Shown piece by piece: positions 41,762 to 43,001 of a stretch of DNA of 64,000 nt. Both the position numbers and the translations under genes were made by a program. Source of the stretch: Chloroflexota bacterium (GTDB lineage: Bacteria; Chloroflexota; Dehalococcoidia; JACPEP01); contig JACPEP010000006.1 of assembly GCA_016183425.1 (NCBI GenBank), positions 1 to 64,000 of the forward strand. Reading direction: 5' to 3'. Under the pieces are notes generated by a model. The model did not search any database, was not told the DNA's origin, and saw nothing but the letters and a program-made list of their open reading frames with translations. How positions within the stretch are numbered: the stretch's first letter is position 1; each line of letters opens with the position of its first letter.

Positions 41762-41790
41762 TTGACATGGCAGTCCATCGATGGTAGCGT
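41762..41790 (+). promoter_or_regulatory. Candidate promoter of the c-di-AMP riboswitch operon
   Basis: TTGACA (41762-41767) and TAGCGT (41785-41790) are 17 bp apart; the -35 is perfect, the -10 moderate. Transcription would start near 41797 and run into the riboswitch. Its -35 element is the left arm of an interrupted dyad (right arm TGTCAA at 41792-41797, core CCATCGATGG at 41775-41784), all centred at the same point. The dyad may be an operator. Confidence 0.55.
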
Positions 41791-41855
41791 GTGTCAACAG
41801 AAGGCAGTTGGGACAGGAGGTGAATCAAATAAGGCTCTTCGGCCGAAGATAATTT

Positions 41856-41989
41856 AAGACAGCCGAATTCCCAAAAGGAAACGGGGGATCCGTATGGGGG
41901 GTGAATTCTCCGCCGTAGGCGGAGGTAGGGTATCTCTTTCAGCCCGAACCCGTCAGCTAACCTCGTAGGCATTTGAAGGAGGGCGTGGC
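41856..41989 (+). promoter_or_regulatory. ydaO/yuaA-type cyclic-di-AMP riboswitch
   Basis: The plus strand contains the conserved blocks of this aptamer in order: GCCGAATTC (41862), GGGGGATCCG, GGGGTGAAT, a variable hairpin (TCTCCGCC-GTA-GGCGGAGG), then GTAGGGTATC...AGCCCGAACCCG, TCAGCTAACCTCG and TAGGC with a trailing GAAGGAGG. This matches the Thermoanaerobacter tengcongensis ydaO aptamer block for block as I remember it. Such RNAs bind c-di-AMP and usually switch expression off by forming a terminator. An intrinsic terminator starts 7 bp downstream. The regulated genes are two small ORFs of unknown function. A preceding palindrome (cttcggccgaag) may take part in switching. Confidence 0.93.
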
Positions 41990-41995
41990 ATTTTC

Positions 41996-42031
41996 AGGAG
42001 CCAGAGGCTACCCTCTGGCTCCTTTCTGTCT
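41996..42031 (+). terminator. Riboswitch-linked intrinsic terminator
   Basis: A 12-bp stem (41996-42007 with 42012-42023, AGGAGCCAGAGG/CCTCTGGCTCCT, loop CTAC) is followed by TTCTGTCT. It starts just after the riboswitch and before the first regulated gene (42089), so it is the likely expression platform. Confidence 0.85.
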
Positions 42032-42088
42032 CGACACAGGAATGCTGAGATAGGATGCCCGCTGGCCAATCTGGTCAAGGAGGACAAT

Positions 42089-42271
42089 ATGTGGTGGCCG
42101 AAGTTATGTCCTTACTGCGGTGGCGATCTTTACTCGCAGTGGGGAGGGGAGAGACGGATCGTTAGTTGTATTCAGTGCAGCCGCGGATTGTCTTGGCAGC
42201 AGATGAGGGAACTCGTCGAGGCGCTGAAAGAGGCGTCCCTTTCTAGCGACGAAAGAGGGAGGCGAAGGTGA
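42089..42271 (+). CDS. Small zinc-ribbon protein under c-di-AMP riboswitch control
   Basis: A 60-residue protein with two Cys pairs (CPYCGG at residues 7-12; SCIQCSRG near residues 26-33), the pattern of a zinc ribbon, then a helical segment (QQMRELVEALKEA). It has a strong ribosome-binding site (GGAGG). It ends in a GTGA overlap with the next gene, so both are made together. Nothing in the sequence shows its target. Likely a nucleic-acid- or protein-binding adaptor; this is an inference from the ribbon alone. Confidence 0.75.
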   Translation: MWWPKLCPYCGGDLYSQWGGERRIVSCIQCSRGLSWQQMRELVEALKEASLSSDERGRRR

Positions 42272-42531
42272 AGACTTCCATCCAAGTCCACTCTCTGCCA
42301 TCACAGAATGGAAAAGGCCCGATTCTCCTTCTGCGTAACGGCCGGCCGGTGGCCATTCTTTCTGAAGGGGACCCCTTACGCCGGACCCTTACACTCTCCC
42401 TGAGAGAGCTCAGGGCTGTTGTGGCGGCCTTCCCTCACATCATGAAAGAGCAACCCCGGGTGAAAAGAATCATGGAGGCTCTTATACAGCTTCGGGAAGA
42501 GGAGGCGCGAGCCGTTAACGCCCCGGGCTAG
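42268..42531 (+). CDS. Hypothetical 87-residue protein, coupled to the zinc-ribbon gene
   Basis: An 87-residue soluble protein that starts with GTG overlapping the previous stop (GTGA). The first half looks like a beta-rich module (PILLLRNGRPVAILSEGD), the second half is helical and ends acidic (VKRIMEALIQLREEEARAV). I do not recognise the family. It is the second and last gene after the c-di-AMP riboswitch and is convergent with the rmlC-like gene, the two stops being one base apart. A role in c-di-AMP-regulated osmotic or cell-wall physiology would fit other ydaO genes but is unsupported by the protein itself. Confidence 0.65.
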   Translation: MKTSIQVHSLPSQNGKGPILLLRNGRPVAILSEGDPLRRTLTLSLRELRAVVAAFPHIMKEQPRVKRIMEALIQLREEEARAVNAPG

Positions 42532-42532
42532 G

Positions 42533-42988
42533 CTATCGGTTTTTCAGTGCCCAGTCGTAAGGGATGTCCGGCGAGTCCCAGGGGAGGCGATACTCGTCGG
42601 GCTGGGCCGGGTTGTAGGGGCGGGTGGGGAAGTTCAGAAGCAGCGACGGTTCTAACCCGATGGTCTTGTAACCGTGGATGACGAGGACGGGTATTTTTAG
42701 CAGAATAGGATTGTTCTCCCCCAGGAAGTACTCTTCCACCTGGCCCCGGGTGGGGGAATCTTCTCGAGGGTCGTAGAGGACCACCTTCACCATACCCTTG
42801 ACGGCGGCGAAGATGTCGTCCTGGAGCTTGTGGTAGTGCCAGGCCCGCACCACGCCGGGGTAGTTCATAGCTATGTAGCACTGCCCGAAGGTCTCGAAGA
42901 TGGCATCGTCCCTTCGCACTAGCTCCATGAGGTAGCCCCGCTCGTCGGCGTGGCGGGTAAGGTGTTTAATCTGGACGCCCTGGATCAT
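42533..42988 (-). CDS. RmlC-like cupin (dTDP-4-dehydrorhamnose 3,5-epimerase-related)
   Basis: A 151-residue RmlC-type cupin: DERGYLMELVR near the N-terminus, then AWHYHKLQDDIFAAVKGMVKVVLYD and VIHGYKTIG. The classical enzyme epimerises the C3 and C5 positions of dTDP-4-keto-6-deoxyglucose for rhamnose synthesis, and is ~180 residues; this one is shorter, so related sugar-nucleotide isomerases are possible. The ATG at 42988 has AGGAG at a proper distance; an upstream GTG only overlaps it. No other sugar-nucleotide genes are near. Confidence 0.8.
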   Translation of the reverse strand: MIQGVQIKHLTRHADERGYLMELVRRDDAIFETFGQCYIAMNYPGVVRAWHYHKLQDDIFAAVKGMVKVVLYDPREDSPTRGQVEEYFLGENNPILLKIPVLVIHGYKTIGLEPSLLLNFPTRPYNPAQPDEYRLPWDSPDIPYDWALKNR

Positions 42989-43001
42989 GAGCACTCCTAT
43001 T

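Follow-up and report, generated by a model that had tools for sequence, protein, structure and literature searches.

A c-di-AMP riboswitch ahead of a small gene pair that includes a zinc ribbon in a Dehalococcoidia genome, and the recurrence of this pairing across the class

Introduction

Most of what is known of c-di-AMP biology comes from Firmicutes and Actinobacteria, in which it is associated with potassium and osmolyte transport and with cell-wall enzymes. The window analysed here, a stretch of 64,000 nucleotides from a bacterium of the class Dehalococcoidia (Chloroflexota), carries a leader of the c-di-AMP riboswitch type followed by two small uncharacterised genes, which raises the question of what such a switch controls in this lineage and whether the arrangement recurs. 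In the open-access papers searched, none was found that pairs the term 'ydaO riboswitch' with 'zinc ribbon', nor any relevant one on a c-di-AMP riboswitch in Chloroflexi.

The riboswitch and its two-gene operon

The Rfam model RF00379 matches over its full length (positions 1-134) at 41851-41986 of the forward strand, with 100 bits against a gathering score of 38 and an E value of 1.5e-22, and this is the sole Rfam match above threshold across the whole window. The initial annotation had proposed a ydaO/yuaA aptamer upstream of two small genes, a proposal that this score bears out; the bounds it gave, 41856-41989, identify the right site, with ends displaced by 3-5 nt. The riboswitch is single-copy in the source genome (2.70 Mb, 52 contigs), which also encodes a diadenylate cyclase (DAC) domain (E 3.9e-41). 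The locus comprises the following features.

41762-41790, forward strand: putative promoter, TTGACA at 41762-41767, a 17-nt spacer and TAGCGT at 41785-41790, read from the sequence
41851-41986, forward strand: c-di-AMP (ydaO/yuaA) riboswitch aptamer, from the RF00379 covariance model
41862-41864 with 41968-41970, forward strand: helix P1, from the covariance-model alignment
41881-41886 with 41961-41966, forward strand: helix P2, from the covariance-model alignment
41934-41940 with 41975-41981, forward strand: pseudoknot between the loop CUCUUUC and the 3' tail GAAGGAG, with equivalent pairing in leaders of the class
41968-42002, forward strand: candidate antiterminator hairpin, GGC/GCC plus UUUGAAGG/UUUUCAGG, from the minimum-energy fold of transcripts truncated at 42005-42012
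41996-42030, forward strand: intrinsic terminator, a 12-bp stem at 41996-42023 and then TTCTGTCT, from fold energy
42078-42083, forward strand: Shine-Dalgarno sequence AGGAGG, five bases upstream of ORF1, read from the sequence
42089-42271, forward strand: ORF1, a 60-aa zinc-ribbon protein with an ATG start and the pattern CxxC-x16-CxxC, matched by the class-wide family profile A3
42268-42531, forward strand: ORF2, an 87-aa protein with the motif EGDPLR, with homologues behind riboswitches in genomes G251 and G184

The pseudoknot is part of the ligand-bound fold in the c-di-AMP riboswitch class. At least six contiguous loop-tail pairs occur in 109 of 112 Dehalococcoidia leaders, with many sequence changes among them, and the mean pseudoknot helix in these leaders is 7.53, compared with 6.49 when the partners are shuffled (maximum across 200 shuffles, 6.79). 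The assignment of the leader to the c-di-AMP class RF00379 is firm, and the RNA would be expected to bind that ligand.

The GTG start of ORF2 sits within the stop of ORF1, in a GTGA overlap at 42268-42271, just as had been described for the 60-residue zinc-ribbon gene and the 87-residue gene. The next gene, at 42533-42994 on the reverse strand, is dTDP-sugar epimerase-like and convergent, while the rpsL-like gene upstream of the leader is divergent; the transcript, and with it the switch, therefore serves only ORF1 and ORF2.

Terminator, candidate antiterminator and predicted direction of the switch

The putative promoter at 41762-41790 is rated weak, since its -10 element TAGCGT matches TATAAT at only three of six positions and the site is absent from the list returned by the promoter scan. 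Downstream, the intrinsic terminator that had been placed after the aptamer holds up well: its stem at 41996-42023 is a perfect 12 bp with a 4-nt loop, dG is -23.8 kcal/mol and z is -5.7, and none of 200 shuffles is equally stable, although the T tract (TTCTGTCT) is modest or weak. This terminator forms a hairpin of its own, some 13 nt past the pseudoknot tail. The candidate antiterminator at 41968-42002 draws on three elements, namely the 3' strand of P1 (41968-41970), bases 41975-41979 of the pseudoknot strand and the initial seven bases of the terminator (41996-42002), and taken alone it is of modest stability (-9.3 kcal/mol, z -1.8).

The aptamer and the antiterminator hairpin are mutually exclusive, as are the antiterminator and the terminator, so that ligand binding should favour termination, and the anatomy of the leader predicts an OFF switch. 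At high c-di-AMP, P1 and the pseudoknot would form, the antiterminator would be blocked and transcription would end at the 41996-42023 terminator; at low c-di-AMP, the antiterminator would form, and ORF1 and ORF2 would be transcribed and then translated as a coupled pair. This direction agrees with the ydaO switches described so far, including ydaO/kimA, which are OFF switches (PMC9960051).

The zinc-ribbon protein ORF1

The four cysteines are invariant across the 23 sequences of the zinc-ribbon alignment A3, which represents the family found in the window. ORF1 stays below cut-off for every Pfam and NCBIfam family, and a single-protein scan of 84,980 genomes with it returned no matches. When single-sequence models of the two ORFs were used in structure searches, neither matched a known fold significantly; the best Foldseek match of the ORF1 model, to the N-terminal zinc domain of MqsA, is weak (probability 0.75, E 0.18). 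The subfamily of ORF1 carries the signature WxK-C-P-x-C-GGDL, and its other members were found in class genomes without a riboswitch link. The source genome itself has another gene of the zinc-ribbon family, also without a riboswitch, downstream of a GroEL-like ORF (C31:16320-16445, locus L011).

The partner ORF2

A single-sequence AlphaFold (AF2) model of ORF2 shows three strands followed by helices (pLDDT 77.8), and no significant match was found in Pfam, NCBIfam, PADLOC, PHROGs or PDB. The expectation that neither product would resemble known ydaO targets agrees with the lack of Pfam and NCBIfam matches above cut-off for both proteins. The VAILSEGDPLR segment of ORF2 (window 42300-42400) is similar to the GDP loop found in precorrin methyltransferases, to which there are weak Pfam and NCBIfam matches; ORF2 is far too short to be such an enzyme. 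The sole match in the ORF2 scan, from Methylobacterium, was rejected as a homologue, since it lies in an ORF that looks like a precorrin methyltransferase and has a comparable GDP loop, and weak matches in G152 and in G251 C5 were rejected as xseB-like genes adjoining xseA.

Two homologues of ORF2 were detected, in G251 and G184, both behind c-di-AMP riboswitches, and in 301 genomes sampled across the phylum a search with ORF2 returned only the window copy. The window protein shares 43% identity with that of G251 across 67 residues (E 5e-17 for the pair), and the two come from different families of the class. Between the G251 and G184 genes, the differences at codon positions 1, 2 and 3 number 17, 20 and 43, a coding-like, third-position bias. 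That the two ORFs are spurious and the leader is a relic is therefore hardly credible: both ORFs are short and lack a curated family, as a relic might, but good Shine-Dalgarno sequences, conserved cysteines, the identity of ORF2 across families and its third-position-biased change all speak against it.

The G251 locus (L015) has the order ydaO riboswitch, terminator, 89-aa ORF, zinc ribbon and ORF2 homologue. At G184 C6 (L019), the riboswitch and terminator are followed by the ORF2 homologue, and the short sequence in between resembles the zinc-ribbon gene of G251 in its 3' part but is broken by a stop; the zinc ribbon has apparently been lost there while ORF2 remains. These loci bear on the idea that the products of ORF1 and ORF2 are a toxin-antitoxin-like or autoregulatory pair under c-di-AMP, with an MqsA-type zinc domain and a partner. 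The Foldseek likeness to MqsA and the coupling of two small ORFs would suit such a pair, but it is very improbable, given that no fold match of ORF1 reaches E < 0.001, that ORF2 has no significant match to a known toxin in Pfam, PADLOC or PDB, that ORF2 persists in G184 beside an apparently decayed zinc ribbon, and that in G251 another gene separates the switch from the zinc ribbon. In the preferred reading of a dedicated two-gene operon, ORF2 would be an accessory partner of ORF1.

Recurrence of the riboswitch/zinc-ribbon pairing in Dehalococcoidia

Two single-contig genomes of the class, 1.4-1.5 Mb in size, contain 27-28 reductive dehalogenase matches, and two others of 1.7-1.9 Mb contain 21-30; this agrees with Dehalococcoides and Dehalogenimonas and places the class as Dehalococcoidia. 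Among 294 genomes of the class, RF00379 is present in 127 and the zinc-ribbon family in 220; among the 40 nearest genomes listed, none belongs to the taxonomic family of the source genome. In a motif-only count, a small CxxC-N8-30-CxxC ORF lies at most 700 nt sense-downstream of the riboswitch at 31 of 92 loci, and the control counts for a small CxxC..CxxC ORF were 0/91 in antisense, 0/57 further downstream and 1/62 upstream. The zinc-ribbon profile A3 (39 positions, 23 cores) was then searched alongside the riboswitch in 44 class genomes, picked for carrying riboswitches and nearly all of different genera. Thirty-seven of the 105 zinc-ribbon copies sit 35-450 nt downstream of, and on the same strand as, one of 133 riboswitches; all but one of these 37 lie within 135 nt, and they are spread over 29 genomes and 15 families. 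Uniform placement would expect about 0.04 linked pairs; with so simple a null, and with genomes picked for their riboswitches, the ratio is not a precise probability. The riboswitch-linked seeds of the profile come from six families, and nine further families hold 19 of the 37 linked copies.

About two thirds of the zinc-ribbon copies in the 44 genomes have no riboswitch link, and no riboswitch was found at the zinc-ribbon loci L003-L013. A standard ydaO riboswitch might accordingly stand before a generic zinc-ribbon gene by chance, the pairing having no special meaning, and a family so widespread in the class with most copies unlinked would fit that account. It is nevertheless quite unlikely in view of the 37 linked copies in 15 families where about 0.04 were expected, and of the sense-downstream excess over the antisense and further-downstream controls. 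The initial annotation had proposed a look for repeated pairs among the gene neighbours of relatives and had suggested a possible new c-di-AMP output; the former were found, and the latter gains support from this recurrence together with the position of both ORF2 homologues behind riboswitches.

Zinc-ribbon subfamilies and variant leaders

The largest riboswitch-linked zinc-ribbon group (alignment A4) consists of proteins of about 70 aa whose tail, RRRQPSHGK, is invariant; in a sample of 400 genomes from across the phylum, its matches at E < 1e-30 were confined to the class. In two further linked groups, the zinc ribbon stands before a YtxH-like or BrkB-like membrane protein. ORF1 is mostly 36-41% identical to unlinked zinc ribbons and 15-26% identical to riboswitch-linked ones; because it is nearer to the unlinked copies, repeated recruitment of zinc-ribbon subfamilies to riboswitches is suggested, with the qualification that sequences of 40 residues give no firm tree.

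In some zinc-ribbon leaders, the terminator stem nearest the U-run is built from the pseudoknot strand itself (e.g. GGAAGGCC...AGGUCUUUUUU). This set comprises L017, L037, L061, L079, L095, L101, L148, L151-L153, L161-L163, L166, L167 and L182, the last assigned by eye. Since ligand binding would block a terminator of this kind, these leaders are predicted, from their sequences, to be ON switches. Extended to the window, the same logic would have c-di-AMP binding relieve termination and induce the operon, and leaders such as L061, L151, L153, L161-L163 and L166, in which the pseudoknot strand itself serves as 5' arm of the terminator, lend it some plausibility. For the window, however, it is unlikely: its terminator is separate from the pseudoknot tail, the aptamer and the terminator each face competition from an alternative helix, and an ON switch would depart from every ydaO switch described. 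OFF control remains the preferred reading of the window leader.

Several further arrangements were observed in the class. Behind ydaO riboswitches, a small protein whose helical N-terminus is followed by a C-terminal CxxC..CxxC is found at L024, L030, L039, L077 and L103, and a small CxxC/CxxC protein ending in PEWR(F/Y)G at L034, L036, L040 and L084. Zinc ribbons with the RRRQPSHGK tail but without a detectable riboswitch occur at L183-L185 (family f20) and at L181 (G069); TTTCACAA-type motifs repeat upstream of the f20 copies, suggesting another regulator for them. Upstream of the zinc ribbon at L175 (G016 C57), ydaO-aptamer-like pieces (GGGTGAAT, CCCGAACCCG and CGCAGGC) are present with no cmscan match, resembling a decayed or divergent riboswitch. 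At G026 C101:11996-15224 (L046), two ydaO riboswitches lie 3 kb apart on one strand with a zinc-ribbon ORF in between, and the first of them precedes a substrate-binding-protein-like ORF.

Probable role and significance

Other genes behind riboswitches in the class, chosen by ORF scan and with family matches tested on representatives, encode a GT20 trehalose-phosphate synthase, a KamA-family radical SAM protein, a VTT-domain membrane protein, and YtxH-like and BrkB-like proteins. These other targets suggest osmotic or envelope stress, in keeping with the osmotic and cell-wall/envelope roles reported for the ydaO riboswitch class (PMC7266159, PMC9960051). Within such a programme, ORF1 would bind nucleic acid, the ribosome or RNA polymerase, or a partner protein, and a small stress-responsive zinc-ribbon protein acting on one of these is the most likely role. 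Grounded in the identity of the riboswitch, the anatomy of the operon and the recurrent riboswitch/zinc-ribbon pairing, the best explanation is that the locus is probably a ydaO-class transcriptional c-di-AMP riboswitch of the OFF type running a dedicated two-gene operon, in which the zinc ribbon ORF1 would take part in an osmotic or envelope stress programme with ORF2 as its accessory partner.

The riboswitch class is known, while its recurrent zinc-ribbon output appears to be new. A wider proposal, somewhat short of an even chance, is that the small zinc-ribbon family is a major unrecorded c-di-AMP output in Dehalococcoidia, a frequent and perhaps the most frequent riboswitch target, with subfamilies recruited repeatedly and with some switches that use a pseudoknot-strand terminator being genetically ON, unlike the OFF switches described. 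The pairing across at least 15 families points to an unstudied protein effector arm of c-di-AMP and offers a specific, small and testable gene set, and the leaders of the class are natural material for asking whether one aptamer class serves both OFF and ON wiring.

Comparison with known systems

One counterpart is the G251 operon, which shares with the window a riboswitch, zinc ribbon and ORF2 homologue in matching order and differs in having an additional small gene first and in belonging to another family of the class. The A4 zinc ribbons resemble ORF1 in their CxxC-x16-CxxC pattern and in being the first gene after a ydaO riboswitch, but they carry the invariant basic tail that ORF1 lacks, and their terminator is often built on the pseudoknot strand. 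With small zinc-ribbon proteins of the Rpb9/TFIIB/LysW/Lar type, ORF1 has in common a pair of CxxC knuckles and a fold that is predicted to be ribbon-like, whereas it is a single short ribbon with a C-terminal helix and no partner domain, under all Pfam and NCBIfam cut-offs. Finally, the window leader is like the ydaO/yuaA leader, as found upstream of B. subtilis ydaO/kimA, in its full aptamer consensus, its loop-tail pseudoknot and the intrinsic terminator downstream; the targets of that leader are a transporter, an osmolyte gene or a cell-wall hydrolase, whereas the riboswitch of the window precedes two uncharacterised small proteins.
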